DNA from: a virus
Length of the DNA stretch: 59,914 nucleotides
Reading direction: 5' to 3' (one strand)
Virus record (IMG/VR): IMGVR_UViG_3300034374_007566
Location: 1 to 59,914 of that record
Under the pieces are notes generated by a model. It did not search any database and was not told the origin of the DNA. It saw only the letters and a program-made list of their open reading frames with translations. Shown here piece after piece: positions 23,958-59,642 of the stretch (its first letter is position 1; each line of letters begins with the position of its first letter). A program made the translations under genes and the position numbers.

Positions 23958-24328
23958 TGAGCGACTACTACACCGAAGACTTTGCCGACATCGTTTCCTG
24001 TGCCAGGGAGCGATGCATGCTGAATGACATCATGCGAGCCTGGGGTGACAGCGGACTGCCCGAGGACTTTTCCGACAGCGGTGTCCGACCGGCCTTCAAT
24101 CGCAACAGCGGGCATGTGTTCCTTGTCAATGAGGACCTGGATGTCTGCATGCTGCGGGACGGCAAGTTGGAGTCCTTCTACACCAGCCCCTATGAGGGCA
24201 GGGAAGGTTTCTTCGATGAACTGCTGGAGGAGTACGCCGACATGCACCCAGAGGACCAGCGGTGGATGCGTGACATCGCTGACCACACTGGCCGTGATAT
24301 CCCGGAGGTTGACGATGCTGAAGTCTGA
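23957..24328 (+). CDS. Hypothetical early protein (123 aa)
   Basis: Coupled by TGATG. Acidic; a strand pair GHVFLVNEDLDVCMLRDGKL is followed by a long helix EGREGFFDELLEEYADMHPE. The layout resembles small phage anti-host proteins but I see no nameable family. Confidence 0.55.
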   Translation: MSDYYTEDFADIVSCARERCMLNDIMRAWGDSGLPEDFSDSGVRPAFNRNSGHVFLVNEDLDVCMLRDGKLESFYTSPYEGREGFFDELLEEYADMHPEDQRWMRDIADHTGRDIPEVDDAEV

Positions 24329-24524
24329 GCGGGCCAAGCAAGACCTGGAGGATGGCCGGGCAGTGGTCTTCCTCAGTGATGGGGAGACCTGGGATCAGGT
24401 CGAAGACTGTGTTGTTCGCTTCCACTCCGAGGAGGAGGAGTGGGAGTGGGGTGACGGGCCCAAGGGCTGGGTCACGTTGCATCTGGATCAGATCATTCGC
24501 CACTACTTGGAGAGCCACCAATGA
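24315..24524 (+). CDS. Small acidic protein (69 aa)
   Basis: Overlaps the upstream gene by 14 bp; the ATG at 24315 has CCCGGAGGT upstream. Sequence RAVVFLSDGETWDQVEDCVV and EEEEWEWGDGPKG, probably a small beta-barrel. Function unknown. It ends in an ATGA overlap with the clamp-like gene. Confidence 0.5.
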   Translation: MLKSERAKQDLEDGRAVVFLSDGETWDQVEDCVVRFHSEEEEWEWGDGPKGWVTLHLDQIIRHYLESHQ

Positions 24525-25141
24525 ACCTTCCCAAAGCAATCGCTGCTCTGCCCAAGTGGGCTGACGAGTACCCATCCCACTACCAGTTGGACTGCATCCG
24601 CCTGCGGGCCGATGGCCGGCAAGCATACGCCGAGGCCACGGACGGCTGCCGCCTGTGCCGGCTGACGTGGCATTGCGAGGGAGTTGAGGGTGACTATCGC
24701 CTGCCGCACAAGGCCCTTGCCCGTGCCCTGCGGTCGGTCGGTGTCACCCCTGATGGGTATCACGCCAGCCTGAACGGAGATGTCACGGTGTACGGCAAGA
24801 AGTCTGGTGCGACAGTCAAGCCAGAGGAGCCGGAACGCTGGCCGCAAAGCGAGGAGGTGTTGTACCCGGAGCCTGGCACGGAGCCGATCCTTCTGTCGGC
24901 CAAGGAGCTGAGGGACCGTGCCCGTGCTGCCCTGAAGGCAGGCGAGGACGGGATGACGCTGAAGATTGACGATGTGACTACCAAGTTGACATCCAAGTAC
25001 GTCCGTGACATGGCCGAGACTGCGATCCAGTGCGGCTATGACAACGTGGCTGCGTCCACCAAGGATGAGAAGTCTGCCGTCCACTTCTGGGCGGACGGCA
25101 AACTGCTGTTTGATTCCGTGATCATGCCCCGTTTGGACTGA
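24521..25141 (+). CDS. Two-domain beta-clamp-like protein (206 aa)
   Basis: The N-terminal half has ATDGCRLCRL at 39-48 followed by YRLPHKALARALRSVG, which matches domain II of bacterial DnaN (ATDGHRLA... then P-RKxLxELxR). The C-terminal half has SKYVRDMAETAIQCGYDNV (158-176) and ends FDSVIMPRLD, matching domain III (FNxxYLxDxLxAL... ending YVVMPMRL). So domain I appears absent and the protein is about 55% of DnaN length, with two repeats like PCNA or T4 gp45. It would tether a polymerase or repair enzyme to DNA. Coupled by ATGA to the upstream gene. Confidence 0.6.
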   Translation: MNLPKAIAALPKWADEYPSHYQLDCIRLRADGRQAYAEATDGCRLCRLTWHCEGVEGDYRLPHKALARALRSVGVTPDGYHASLNGDVTVYGKKSGATVKPEEPERWPQSEEVLYPEPGTEPILLSAKELRDRARAALKAGEDGMTLKIDDVTTKLTSKYVRDMAETAIQCGYDNVAASTKDEKSAVHFWADGKLLFDSVIMPRLD

Positions 25142-25153
25142 GGAGGAACCCTG

Positions 25154-25603
25154 ATGATTCGCTACCTGAAGAACCGTTTCCGTGCTTACATCCAGGGCAT
25201 CATTGCCGAGAAGGTGGATGCCATCGCTGCCCTTGCCGCCGAGCAGGTGGATGTGGACTCCGTTGTTGACACTGTGATGGACCGCGTGACGGCCGAGCCT
25301 GACGTGGAGTACGACCTGCTGGCCGAGCAGATCGACATCGAAGAACTGGCCCGGCAGATCGACACGTCCTACCTGGCAGGGGAGATGGACTACTCGTCCC
25401 TGGCCTCCGGGGTGGACGTGTCGGAGTTGGCCCGGGAGATTGACGTGTCGGACATTGCTGCCGAGATCGACGCCTCAGAGGTGGCGTCAGCGTTTGATGA
25501 GGATTCCATTGCCGACCGGGTAGTGGAGGACCTGGACTACAAGTGCCTGGCCGCTGCGATTCTGAAGGAACTCCGCCCGGTGGAGGTGCGGCCTTCGGCC
25601 TGA
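25154..25603 (+). CDS. Nonapeptide-repeat acidic protein (149 aa)
   Basis: Residues 51-122 are eight tandem nine-residue units of the form (I/V)-D-x-S/E-x-(L/I)-A-x-x, for example IDIEELARQ, IDTSYLAGE, MDYSSLASG, VDVSELARE, IDVSDIAAE, IDASEVASA. The N-terminus is basic (RYLKNRFRAYIQ). The repeat could form an amphipathic superhelix with a strongly acidic face, possibly mimicking DNA or binding a basic host protein. No family known to me. Followed by a strong terminator. Confidence 0.6.
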   Translation: MIRYLKNRFRAYIQGIIAEKVDAIAALAAEQVDVDSVVDTVMDRVTAEPDVEYDLLAEQIDIEELARQIDTSYLAGEMDYSSLASGVDVSELAREIDVSDIAAEIDASEVASAFDEDSIADRVVEDLDYKCLAAAILKELRPVEVRPSA

Positions 25604-25652
25604 GTGTGGTAGAATGCGTTGACTGGGTGGGCCTTCTGGCCCGCTCCTGGGG

Positions 25653-25695
25653 CCCCGGCGGGGAAAATGTCCTAAGTACCCGCCGGGGTTTTTTT
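25653..25695 (+). terminator. Rho-independent terminator 1 of the early operon
   Basis: CCCCGGCGGG (25653-25662) and CCCGCCGGGG (25679-25688) form a perfect 10-bp stem, loop 16 nt, followed by seven T. It would end most transcription after the nonapeptide-repeat gene. A possible extended -10 element (TGGTAGAAT, 25607-25615) lies just before it. Confidence 0.85.
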
Positions 25696-33187: not shown

Positions 33188-33451
33188 TCACCACCCCCGC
33201 GTGTGGTCAACCATGACATAGCCGTCTGCACCAACCTCCGACTTCACCGGCTGCAACTCTTCCGGCGGGTCCTCCGCAACCAAGGCAATCCAAAGCAGGT
33301 TCTTGGCGGCACGGGCCACCCACTTCAGGAAGGGCCGGTCGTCTTTGCGGGACGGCGTGGTGGCCGAGCCGGCAAACACAAACCATCCGACCGCTAGGCC
33401 GACCACCAAGGCGATGATGACGGGCCGGTTATTGTGCGAGCCAGCCGCCAT
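33188..33451 (-). CDS. Single-span membrane protein (87 aa)
   Basis: Short N-terminus, one transmembrane span (VIIALVVGLAVGWFVFAG, about 9-26), then a basic and amphipathic cytoplasmic or periplasmic domain. Overlaps the papain-like peptidase gene by 23 bp and probably acts with it, for example as a spanin-like or holin-helper protein. Inference from position. Confidence 0.55.
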   Translation of the reverse strand: MAAGSHNNRPVIIALVVGLAVGWFVFAGSATTPSRKDDRPFLKWVARAAKNLLWIALVAEDPPEELQPVKSEVGADGYVMVDHTRGW

Positions 33452-34460
33452 TATCCAGTTCCCGGAAGTCGAAACCGTCGATTGAGCCGATTGCATACGA
33501 GTCACCCTGTCCTAGTATCGATTCAACGTCCTTCTTCTCTGCCCAAAAACATCCATCTGGCATGTCGTCTGGCCACTTGCCACCCCCTACATAGTTGCCC
33601 CAGCTATTGATGATCAGCGCACCATCACGGGGGCTGCCGTTCTCTTGGAACCTAAGGCCGATGATGCACATTTGGTGCATCCAAACCCCCGAGCGACGGC
33701 AGTAGCCATCACTGTCCCTGGTGGTATTGAAGCCAACACTGGATGCGATGGTCACGGGGTAGCCGCTAGTCACCGCTGCGACCAGCTCTTCCCAGGTCTT
33801 CACTGCAACGACATGCTTGCAGGGATGCTTCTTGGCCTCAGCATCCATCTTGCCGTTGTCGCCCTGCCCGCCGCATCCGTAGGCTCCGTACTCTTTAGCC
33901 CTGCTTGCAGAGTAGGTGGTCAGGTCCCGCCCAACCACGGGCTCACGGTAGACCACCCCCCAGTCCTTCAGCCACTTCGCTGCACCCCAGCCCGTGGCAC
34001 CATCGCTGTACCCGCCGACCGGGCGGGCACCGTCGCCTGGCTTCCCTCTGGCTTCTACGCGGGCTCCGCCGTAGATTGGCTCAGACGCAGGCAGGAGGGG
34101 CGGGTCGGCACGCTGGCCCTGGGTCCAGTCTACGCTCTCAGCACAGTACACAGCGTGCATAGCTCCCCATGACACGCAGTCTCCAATGCCCTGCCGTGCA
34201 ACTTTGAACGGCGTCCCATAGCGGGCCTGGTGGGCCTGGTCCATGTGGCGGTATAGGAAGGTGTCCTTGTGCGTTGCCTTGGCCATGGCATCCGCACCAG
34301 CCTGGGCGAAGTACGGCTGGTCCAGTGAGCGCAGGAATATCTGCACACCCACCGGGTCAGGCACATAGCCAGTTGGCATCTCCTTCTTGGGGAGAGCCAG
34401 GAGGACCGCCAATGAGACAACGGCCACCGCCAGGAAGAGTCGGAACGGATGCGGCTTCAC
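33429..34460 (-). CDS. Membrane-anchored papain-like cysteine peptidase (343 aa)
   Basis: Signal anchor at residues 6-24 (FRLFLAVAVVSLAVLLAL). The C1-family active site is complete: Q90-GIGD-C95-VSWGA (oxyanion Gln and nucleophile), H262 in WMHQMCIIGL, N285 in ALIINSWGN. Export across the membrane suggests action on the host envelope or on surface proteins, in a group with holin-like genes. Murein lysis by a papain fold is possible; degradation of a proteinaceous host cell wall would also fit. Substrate inferred only. Confidence 0.75.
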   Translation of the reverse strand: MKPHPFRLFLAVAVVSLAVLLALPKKEMPTGYVPDPVGVQIFLRSLDQPYFAQAGADAMAKATHKDTFLYRHMDQAHQARYGTPFKVARQGIGDCVSWGAMHAVYCAESVDWTQGQRADPPLLPASEPIYGGARVEARGKPGDGARPVGGYSDGATGWGAAKWLKDWGVVYREPVVGRDLTTYSASRAKEYGAYGCGGQGDNGKMDAEAKKHPCKHVVAVKTWEELVAAVTSGYPVTIASSVGFNTTRDSDGYCRRSGVWMHQMCIIGLRFQENGSPRDGALIINSWGNYVGGGKWPDDMPDGCFWAEKKDVESILGQGDSYAIGSIDGFDFRELDNGGWLAQ

Positions 34461-40699: not shown

Positions 40700-41026
40700 T
40701 CAGAACGCCGGAATCTCTGCTTCCTCCCTGACCCCGCCTCCAAGCAGGGCAAGATTCCGAACGTCCAGCGACCAGAACTCCTTTTGCTGGCCGTCCTTCT
40801 CATACTGGCGGCACTTCAGTTCGCCGCTCACGGCAACCTGCTTGCCGCGGGTGAGGTACTCAGTCACCCCGCCAGGTCGCCACATGTCGCAGGAGATGTA
40901 GAGCGTCTCGTCCCGCCGGCCATTGACCGCAATGCGGAACGAAGCGACTTCGTTCTCTCCAACCACCTTGCTCTCGGCGTCACGGGTCAGGTTGCCAGTG
41001 AACGCACAGCTATTCAGACTTGCCAT
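40700..41026 (-). CDS. ssb: Single-stranded DNA-binding protein (108 aa)
   Basis: OB-fold of the SSB family: NSCAFTGNLTRDAESKVVGE, VASFRIAVNGRR, LYISCDMWRP and KQVAVSGELKCRQYEKDG. The length is that of the core domain without an acidic tail, though the C-terminus EEAEIPAF keeps a short acidic end with a final Phe as in the DDDIPF type. Protects ssDNA during recombination-dependent replication. Confidence 0.85.
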   Translation of the reverse strand: MASLNSCAFTGNLTRDAESKVVGENEVASFRIAVNGRRDETLYISCDMWRPGGVTEYLTRGKQVAVSGELKCRQYEKDGQQKEFWSLDVRNLALLGGGVREEAEIPAF

Positions 41027-42712: not shown

Positions 42713-43540
42713 ATGCTTATCCTAGATTACGCTAAACAATACGCTAACAGAGTCGGTGCTTCTCCGGGATACCTGGAGCAGTTGGAAGTGTTTTTCCGCC
42801 GATTGCCGTGGAATGTGGAGTCTGTTACAGCAGACAATGTCGATGCCTACCTCACGCAGGCGCTCACTCATCTCTCCCCTCAGACCGTCGCCAACCACCG
42901 CAGAATGCTCACAACCGTCATGGACGACGCAGCCAAGCAAGGAGTGAACACCTGTATACACAGGCGATTCCGCCGAGTCAAGGTGCCCAGACCGATTCCG
43001 AGAGCTTGGAGCCGGAGCGAGATTCGCTGCCTGGTGGACGAGGCTAGAGCAGAGAGCGGTCATTTCCGTGACCTACCGAAGTCCGATTTCCTTGTCGCCT
43101 GGTTTTTGGCCGGCTACTGCCTGGGCCTCCGGGCGGGAGATTTGCACGCCATCCGTTGGGAGCAAATCCGTGGGCGAAGGTTGTATCTGATCCAGGGCAA
43201 GACTGCAAGCCCGCACGTTGCGGTTTTTACCGACGAGGCTTTGCTGGCGTGTAAGGCCCTTCCGCGGCGGGCCCGGGTCTTTGGTGACTTCGCTGCTATC
43301 AACACCATCCAGCAGTGGGTGGCCAAGGTGGTGAAGCGGGCGGGCCTGGCCGGCAGCACCAAGTTCCTCCGGCGAAGCTGTGCGACCTATAGCAAGGTCA
43401 TGGGCAAGAGCCCGCAGCATGCCCTCGGCCACCTCACTGAAGGACTGGCCGAACGGAACTACGTTGACCGCCTTCTATATGAAGAGGAGGCCGGCATCAA
43501 CGGAGAGCCGCTGCCGGCAGTGCTAGATGTTGAAGACTGA
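42713..43540 (+). CDS. int: Tyrosine recombinase/integrase (275 aa)
   Basis: N-terminal SAM-like core-binding domain (1-95), catalytic domain with CLGLRAGDLHAIRW (R140), GKT (K163), KFLRRSCATY (R220), LGHL (H240) and RNYVDR (nucleophile Y250). The usual HxxR box II is KxxR here. AAAGGTG precedes the ATG. Placed next to a tRNA-like element, as for phages that integrate at tRNA genes. Converges on the long late protein with an 18-bp overlap. Confidence 0.85.
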   Translation: MLILDYAKQYANRVGASPGYLEQLEVFFRRLPWNVESVTADNVDAYLTQALTHLSPQTVANHRRMLTTVMDDAAKQGVNTCIHRRFRRVKVPRPIPRAWSRSEIRCLVDEARAESGHFRDLPKSDFLVAWFLAGYCLGLRAGDLHAIRWEQIRGRRLYLIQGKTASPHVAVFTDEALLACKALPRRARVFGDFAAINTIQQWVAKVVKRAGLAGSTKFLRRSCATYSKVMGKSPQHALGHLTEGLAERNYVDRLLYEEEAGINGEPLPAVLDVED

Positions 43541-57714: not shown

Positions 57715-58020
57715 TCACTCGGCAGGCAGCAGGGCCACCGCATCAGCCAGCGGCACTACTTCTACCGCAGGCAGCAGGATCGACTTATCAGCCGCCTCCC
57801 ACATTTCATGCAGATACCCGCCGGGCACTGTCGCCGTCAAAATGTCGGCTGTCAGCATAAGCCGCCCATCGGTCAGGAGGCGTGGCGTTGCCCGGCAGTC
57901 TGGCTGTCCATGCTGTGCGTGAAGTTCAACCAGTCGCTGGGCAAGTTGGGCCGTAAACAGCAGCGCGTGCTGTTTGCCCCACGCATACGTCACCGGCATT
58001 TCAATGTCGGCCAATGTCAT
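57715..58020 (-). CDS. Small tail-fibre-associated protein, copy B (101 aa)
   Basis: Paralogue of the 105-residue protein at 92-409 (shared MTL-D, LAQRL-ELHAQHG, ILLPAVEVVPLADAVALLP). Follows its LamG gene with an ATGA overlap, like copy A. GGGGAGGA precedes the ATG. Confidence 0.7.
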   Translation of the reverse strand: MTLADIEMPVTYAWGKQHALLFTAQLAQRLVELHAQHGQPDCRATPRLLTDGRLMLTADILTATVPGGYLHEMWEAADKSILLPAVEVVPLADAVALLPAE

Positions 58021-59642
58021 GGAGTCCTCCCCAGCGATGATTGAAACGCCGTCATAGCCGCAGCAAACGCCGTGTGCTGGGCCGCACTCATCGACGCGCC
58101 AATGGTGTAGCCGGCGATAGTTTCGTCGTAGTAGCCGGTTCCAATGGGCGAGCCGTCTAGGTTTTGATTGAAAACGTAGATGTTTAGTCCTGGCATCGGG
58201 TCGCCCGTAGCGTCAGATGCGTGAGTCGCGGCACTTGTGCCGTCATCGTAGGTCGTCAGCGAAGTTTCGGCGTCCCTGTCTACAACCAGCAACCCGCCGG
58301 ATGTCGTTGCTATTTGCGCGACAGCACCAACACCCCGAACTTCTGGCGTGAAGTCTCCGCTATTGTTGGAGCGAAACCCCAAAATGCCGTCGGGATCAGA
58401 AATCACCGAATACGCACCGATTGGCCTGTCACTGGCTGGCGGCGCGTTTGTGTTTGGCTTGTAAAAGCCGATATGCGCCATGTCTGGCAGTATGTCTGCA
58501 CTAAATCCAGTGTCTAGATATTTGCTGGTCGCGTTGCCCGTCAGCCCAACGCTCTCGCTGTAGTCTCCCTGAACGAAGTTGTTGTTGGTGTCCAAGGCGT
58601 TGCCGTACTGCGTGCCGCCAAGGCTCGTTCCTCGGTAGAGCGGCACCCTGACGGCGACCAACGAGGCATCGGAGTCGCCACAGAAAAGGTTGAGCCGGTA
58701 GAAGCGGTCGCGGATGGATGCCGCGTCGATGGCGTTGCAGAAGGTGTTGACCGCCGCCAGCGTCCCCACGCTCACGCTGCCAGAGTTGCTGTAGACCGCC
58801 GACTCCCACGCCAAGGCATCGCCGTTGTCTGGGCGGGCCTGCGAGCCGAATCCGGGGAACGAGTAGGCGTAGGGGTGATTGCTGGGCAGTTGGGCCTGGA
58901 GTCCCCACTTCCAGGCGAGGTAGCCTTCGATCTTCTGGTATTCCTCTAGTGTCAGCGCCCTATCCCAGGACAAGACCTCGCAAAGCGTCATCTGGGAGCG
59001 GTATTGAACGGAGATCGCGCCAGACTGAAACCGGCCGCCCAGCAGAACCCCGGCAGCCGTGCCTTCCGATGCGCTTGCGCTTGTTCCCCTGGTCACGCCG
59101 TTGGTGCGAAGCGTCTGCCTGTCGCCAGCAGCGATCTGTCGTCGGATCGTAATGACCGAGAGGGGCAGCGTTCCGGCTCCCGAGTAATCGACAGTGTAGT
59201 TTTCCGATTGCAGGCGAAGGAACGCCGTATTGTCGCGGGTCTCTATCAGCCAAGCATTCGCATTGCCGTTGTCGTTGCCAGACGGCGGATAATAAGAGAA
59301 AACACCTGAAAAGCCGGCTGCGGCGTCCTCCCTGACAACAGTTATCACAGTGTTGTCGCCCAGCGTCACACTTGTGGCGGCAGACAGCACATCACCGCCG
59401 TCGAACGCCAGGGCGTTTTTGCCGTTGACGTAGGCCGCTTGGTAGGTCGGCTGGGCGGCGGCCGTGCCTTGCGTTAGTGCCACGCCCGCCCCACTCTTGT
59501 CACGCCACTCGCTGACGGTGGTGCTGTTCAGCGTGATGGTAGAGGAGTCGGAAGCGTCCCACCAGCCAGAGAGCCCCGCGATGCTCTTGGGATTGAACCC
59601 AGAAGCCAGCGGGCGGAGCAGCCTGGGATTCATGGCACACAT
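58017..59642 (-). CDS. LamG-like tail/receptor-binding protein, copy B (541 aa)
   Basis: LamG_3-type domain (about 18-245: AGLSGWWDASDSS, VSEWRDKSGAGVALT, LAWKWGLQAQLP at its end) and a C-terminal domain that shares FCNAIDAASIRDRFYRLNLF, VPLYRG-S-GGT-YGNA and YLDTGF with copy A. It lacks the LKLG repeats at the N-terminus. The start may be 59642 or 59633. Likely a second receptor-binding specificity. Confidence 0.75.
   Translation of the reverse strand: MCAMNPRLLRPLASGFNPKSIAGLSGWWDASDSSTITLNSTTVSEWRDKSGAGVALTQGTAAAQPTYQAAYVNGKNALAFDGGDVLSAATSVTLGDNTVITVVREDAAAGFSGVFSYYPPSGNDNGNANAWLIETRDNTAFLRLQSENYTVDYSGAGTLPLSVITIRRQIAAGDRQTLRTNGVTRGTSASASEGTAAGVLLGGRFQSGAISVQYRSQMTLCEVLSWDRALTLEEYQKIEGYLAWKWGLQAQLPSNHPYAYSFPGFGSQARPDNGDALAWESAVYSNSGSVSVGTLAAVNTFCNAIDAASIRDRFYRLNLFCGDSDASLVAVRVPLYRGTSLGGTQYGNALDTNNNFVQGDYSESVGLTGNATSKYLDTGFSADILPDMAHIGFYKPNTNAPPASDRPIGAYSVISDPDGILGFRSNNSGDFTPEVRGVGAVAQIATTSGGLLVVDRDAETSLTTYDDGTSAATHASDATGDPMPGLNIYVFNQNLDGSPIGTGYYDETIAGYTIGASMSAAQHTAFAAAMTAFQSSLGRTP
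58687..58758. repeat. 72-bp near-identical segment shared by the two LamG genes (copy 2)
   Basis: Second copy of 1085-1156, differing at one position. See the first copy. Confidence 0.9.

Follow-up and report, generated by a model that had tools for sequence, protein, structure and literature searches.

The virus record analysed here over its full length (59,914 bp, hereafter referred to as the window) encodes on its + strand, at 24521-25141, a probably ringless DnaN-like protein of 206 residues that consists of a domain II and a reduced domain III of the bacterial beta clamp. The homology of this protein and its family to DnaN domains II and III is secure, and both the alignment and the structural models indicate that the canonical DnaN ring interface is missing on both sides. 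The fragment probably works as a decoy or an adaptor and not as a clamp.

The gene and its relation to DnaN

The start ATG of the gene overlaps the stop of the preceding gene (ATGA), and its frame is open for just 22 codons further 5' (228 vs. 206 residues), so a wrongly chosen start does not hide a domain I. Members of the same family are found at nine other viral contigs or loci (206-212 residues, 51-57% identical to the window protein) and amount, with the window's own, to seven distinct sequences. The relatives share a common start position, with stops lying within several of the upstream frames, and pairwise dN/dS values of 0.3-0.6 in the family point to purifying selection. The four relatives compared in full (47-60 kb) are mostly collinear with the window, and all four carry the gene. 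A tblastn search of GenBank phages with the window protein gave no match, no bacterial or prophage homologues were found in genome contigs for either the clamp fragment or the terminase, and the homologue search with the major head protein of the window was also without a match; the best named relatives of the terminase, at 26% identity, belong to Arthrobacter phages.

Positions 137-308 of phrog_947, a profile of 368 positions labelled “DNA polymerase processivity factor”, match residues 5-172 of the window protein with an E-value of 7.9e-5, and the same profile matches relatives with E-values of 1.5e-9 (locus L001), 1.1e-6, 7e-7 and 1.4e-6. Beta clamps are the best matches of the family profile in the PDB (E-values of 0.0019 and 0.0053), and an hhalign comparison of the family with an alignment of three-domain DnaN proteins gives a score of 81 and an E-value of 1.6e-11. 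Chance resemblance to DnaN is ruled out by the hhalign controls, in which the reversed profile scored 18 and the 40 column-shuffled profiles scored at most 21. The window protein has no match in the Pfam scan, relatives have a weak match under its cut-off (PF02767, E-value 0.009), and the family lies far under the curated DnaN cut-offs (TIGR00663 and PF00712/PF02767/PF02768).

Structure prediction gives the same picture. The AlphaFold model from three family rows is confident in domain III and poor in domain II, and its top Foldseek matches are all beta clamps. With 37 rows, distant viral DnaN included, the mean pLDDT is 93.2 and comparison with the PDB gives E-values down to 2.4e-10 at a query TM-score of at most 0.79, the best matches again all being beta clamps; the DnaN rows partly guide this second model, while the three-row model is free of them. 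A preliminary description of the window had described the protein as beta-clamp-like from a few peptides resembling DnaN domains II and III. The reading frame and the quoted peptides are indeed present in the DNA, and the similarity to domains II and III (from hhalign and phrog_947) as well as the clamp fold (from the predicted structure) bear this description out.

Domain layout, ring interface and peptide pocket

The model secondary structure and the alignment place a complete domain II, with beta-alpha-beta3 occurring twice, at residues 1-119 (24521-24877, + strand). The remainder of the protein (residues 120-206, 24878-25138, + strand) is a domain III which, according to the alignment and the AlphaFold models, has the reduced layout beta1-alpha1-beta2-beta5-alpha2-beta6-beta7-beta8, without beta3 and beta4. 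The alignment locates the deletion to the junction MTLKID-DVTTKLT (24953-24991, + strand), where approximately 28 DnaN residues comprising beta3-beta4 and E298-E304 are missing, and the beta3-beta4 hairpin is absent from the model as well. None of the seven family members has the E298-E304 segment. At 24935-24940 (+ strand) the residues K139-A140 replace I272-L273, the first of these positions being Lys in 7 of 7 members and the second Ala, Glu or Asp. In the E. coli beta ring, domain I of one subunit joins domain III of the next, and the core of this interface includes I272 and L273, with ion pairs made through E298, E300, E301, E303 and E304 (PMC11139829).

The other half of the interface would have to come from domain I, and no DnaN domain I (PF00712) was found at E≤1 in the window and four relatives. 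This result, with the short upstream frame, rules out a domain I concealed by a wrong start, a split gene or a frameshift, and it confirms the earlier observation that the protein seems to lack domain I, as the gene has none and the search of the window and the four relatives turned up none. With both domain I and, in domain III, the strand and the core residues gone, neither side of the canonical interface remains. The preliminary description was likewise right that signatures of domains II and III are both present, although domain III is not whole. At 206 residues, the protein does not have the three domains and approximately 365 residues of bacterial DnaN; it shares with DnaN the fold and order of domains II-III and pocket subsite I, and differs in having neither domain I nor the domain III ring strand and in its subsite II.

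The peptide pocket is retained unevenly. In the alignment, ATDGCRL (24635-24655, + strand) corresponds to pocket subsite I (E. coli A171-L177) and VIMP (25118-25129, + strand) to the C-terminal pocket residues (E. coli V360-P363). PMC11139829 lists 12 positions for subsite I; over these the identity to E. coli is 81%, with 8 of the 12 invariant, as compared to 18% over all aligned columns, and none of 20,000 random draws reached the subsite I value. Subsite II is 32% identical to E. coli, no higher than background. Subsite I seats the Leu-Phe of clamp-binding peptides and subsite II seats the Gln of the motif; with subsite II diverged, canonical clamp-binding motifs may bind weakly.

Candidate partners and functions

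The window phage encodes an SSB, an Erf annealing protein, a PD-(D/E)XK exonuclease, a helicase and an integrase-like protein. In profile searches neither DNA_pol_A nor DNA_pol3_alpha had a match in the window or in five relative records, DNA_pol_B and clamp-loader delta' were likewise without a match in the window and four relatives, and the Pfam scan of 90 window proteins contained neither a polymerase nor a clamp loader; the earlier statement that the phage has no DNA polymerase gene is upheld by these searches. A polymerase hidden in the ORFs of 1168 and 576 residues is unsupported, as both lie beside tail genes and have no polymerase profile match. No canonical clamp-binding motif is conserved in the phage's own replication proteins. 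In the absence of a phage polymerase, a clamp loader and such a motif, the partners of the fragment would be host proteins. Conserved motif-like peptides do occur elsewhere, namely QADLV in the terminase and QLEMY in a methyltransferase-like ORF, and the C-terminal tail of the SSB (40700-41026, - strand), “EEAEIPAF”, resembles the protein-docking tail of bacterial SSB.

Among four readings of this protein we rank first, at what we regard as an even chance, that of a ring-incompetent clamp fragment which would bind host clamp-binding peptides and thus act as a host-directed mimic of the peptide pocket. Domain II and the pared-down domain III would be held together around the pocket, and the fragment would stay monomeric, or at least not encircle DNA. 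It would bind the Leu-Phe part of the clamp-binding motifs of host proteins (clamp-loader delta, DnaE/PolC, repair and regulatory proteins) and would thereby compete with the clamp, diverting or tuning its traffic in the infected host. Clamp-loader delta would be an attractive target; it has no Gln at the usual position and binds by way of subsite I, and monomeric I272A/L273A E. coli beta, which gives no tethering of Pol III, binds delta approximately 50 times tighter than the dimer does (PMC11139829). From these two properties of delta we infer that a ringless fragment could compete for delta or for Leu-Phe motifs. Since a full block of clamp traffic would also hurt a phage that depends on the polymerase of its host, the timing, dose or target of such a competitor must be selective. 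The Twort protein Gp168 is a phage clamp antagonist that binds the DNA channel of beta and prevents loading (PMC11139829). Gp168 and the window protein are alike in being phage proteins with a proposed action on host clamp traffic; Gp168 binds the clamp itself, whereas the window protein would stand in for the clamp and bind its partners.

The preliminary description had suggested either a recruiter of the host polymerase or a decoy for host clamp binders, and this suggestion fits the retained pocket and is strengthened by its conservation. The recruiting variant, ranked second and in our view unlikely, is an adaptor that would belong to the recombination-replication machinery of the phage and bring host polymerase or ligase, via their clamp-binding motifs, to intermediates handled by Erf, the exonuclease, SSB and the helicase. 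The conserved pocket is in keeping with it, as is the presence of those four proteins, since a phage recombination set without a polymerase means that host enzymes must be brought in; it speaks against this reading that the fragment gene belongs to another cluster, on the + strand, while the recombination genes are encoded on the - strand.

Ranked third, and rather improbable, is a repurposed clamp fold that would bind no clamp motifs and would instead have a dedicated partner, e.g., the adjacent acidic repeat protein (149 residues, pI 4.05, 25154-25603, + strand), whose gene comes next downstream in each of the six relatives. The divergence of subsite II and the very long branch of the family (4.8 changes per column) both speak for this reading, but unless the protein binds peptides it is difficult to see why subsite I should have stayed so close to that of E. 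coli. Last, and very doubtful, comes the true processivity clamp of the preliminary description, a closed trimeric ring of six domains, to which a chain of two clamp-type domains (a composition shared with PCNA and T4 gp45) and some retained basic positions of the inner face (K198 invariant; R205 either Arg or Lys) would lend themselves, but which is contradicted, unless a different contact replaces the interface, by the loss of the interface strand, all five glutamates and I272/L273 in every one of the seven members, by a model without the beta3-beta4 hairpin and by a phage without clamp loader or polymerase. The ring had been proposed with domain III taken as whole, its deletion having been missed. 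In both sequence and fold the window protein is nearest to DnaN II-III rather than to PCNA or gp45, and in the alignment and the model its second domain lacks the edge strand with which three such subunits would close a ring. Some unconventional oligomer may nevertheless form.

Reduced clamps in other phages and genome context

DnaN-derived phage proteins without domain I are already present in GenBank, where they are uncharacterised, and our search of the open-licence literature found no papers characterising such clamp fragments. Among them are the proteins of phrog_3007, which carries the label “RusA-like Holliday junction resolvase” and whose members are annotated either as DNA Pol III beta subunit or as RusA-like resolvase. 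The tested members match DnaN (PF02767, TIGR00663, phrog_947), and none of them matches a resolvase Pfam family, so that the label looks wrong, with Pfam, NCBIfam and phrog_947 all assigning DnaN II-III. Examples of DnaN fragments named RusA-like are L101:12004-12522, L102:20010-20522 and L107:1504-2085. A tblastn search with a single 172-residue phrog_3007 “beta subunit” fragment returned 267 phage records, many of them labelled “RusA-like resolvase”. In TheodorHerzl, a phage of E. coli K-12 that also encodes its own DNA polymerase I, the reduced clamp fragment is one small gene, bas14_0007, an occurrence that speaks for the first-ranked reading, and the record note of Bcep781 gp15 reads “DNA Pol III b subunit fragment”. 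E. coli also has beta-star, a short dnaN product that is a clamp of two-thirds length and may offer a lead.

Like the window family, phrog_3007 (TheodorHerzl bas14_0007, EP23p08, Bcep781 gp15) is DnaN-derived and without domain I, and both keep the C-terminal Met-Pro end of the pocket. The aligned phrog_3007 members retain nothing of the first half of domain III, and the ring strand is therefore missing there too; only the window family keeps beta1-alpha1-beta2 of domain III. The phrog_3007 profile matches only L001 of the window family, and weakly (E-value 0.0091). In the tree the long branch of the window family is separate from the phrog_3007 fragments, and the AU test does not reject a joint clade of the two (p 0.12). 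It is a tentative proposal, to which we give somewhat less than even weight, that several phage groups carry ringless clamp mimics, reduced to the pocket, which would act on host clamp-binding proteins and not on DNA, e.g., by trapping the clamp loader, with the window family as a separately reduced lineage. If this is true, the product of these genes in hundreds of phages mimics the docking pocket of the host clamp and is not a clamp, host replication is controlled by a route unlike that of known clamp inhibitors such as Gp168, and a widespread resolvase label in phage records stands corrected.

Other clamp-like phage proteins of approximately 200-217 residues are found in BFVD, and Bacillus phage Sam46 has a clamp of 217 residues. 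Three viral mini-clamps (L082:2842-3972, L083:2815-3957 and L084:3001-4041) lack the first half of domain III and have long Ala/Lys/Pro-rich C-terminal extensions.

A cluster of small + strand genes (22.5-29.3 kb) contains the clamp-fragment gene; the genes bordering this cluster are on the - strand, those for the head at one flank and those for recombination and the tail at the other. The gene whose stop overlaps the clamp start encodes a 69-residue acidic protein (24315-24524, + strand) and is found near the clamp gene in 3 of 6 relatives. The downstream acidic protein contains repeats such as “IDVSELAREIDVSDIAAEIDASEVA”, and the family search with it gave no convincing match. After both genes, at 25649-25692 (+ strand), there is a terminator-like hairpin with a T run (-27.5 kcal/mol, z -2.7) that four of five genomes share; its loop, which ends in CTAAGTA, is conserved, and its stem shows one apparent compensatory change. 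No RNA families or tRNAs were found. A conserved tyrosine-recombinase-like ORF (42713-43540, + strand; PF00589, E-value 0.0039, below cut-off) has no relatives among the bacterial genomes searched. The product of 33429-34460 (- strand) has a hydrophobic N-terminal stretch and no Pfam match, and its “GIGDCVSWG” and “NSWG” recall papain-like cysteine peptidases. Each end of the record has one of two paralogous virion-protein genes (phrog_10356; 406-2025 and 58017-59642, both - strand), and since this pair would adjoin on a circular or permuted map, their position suggests that the record is nearly complete.
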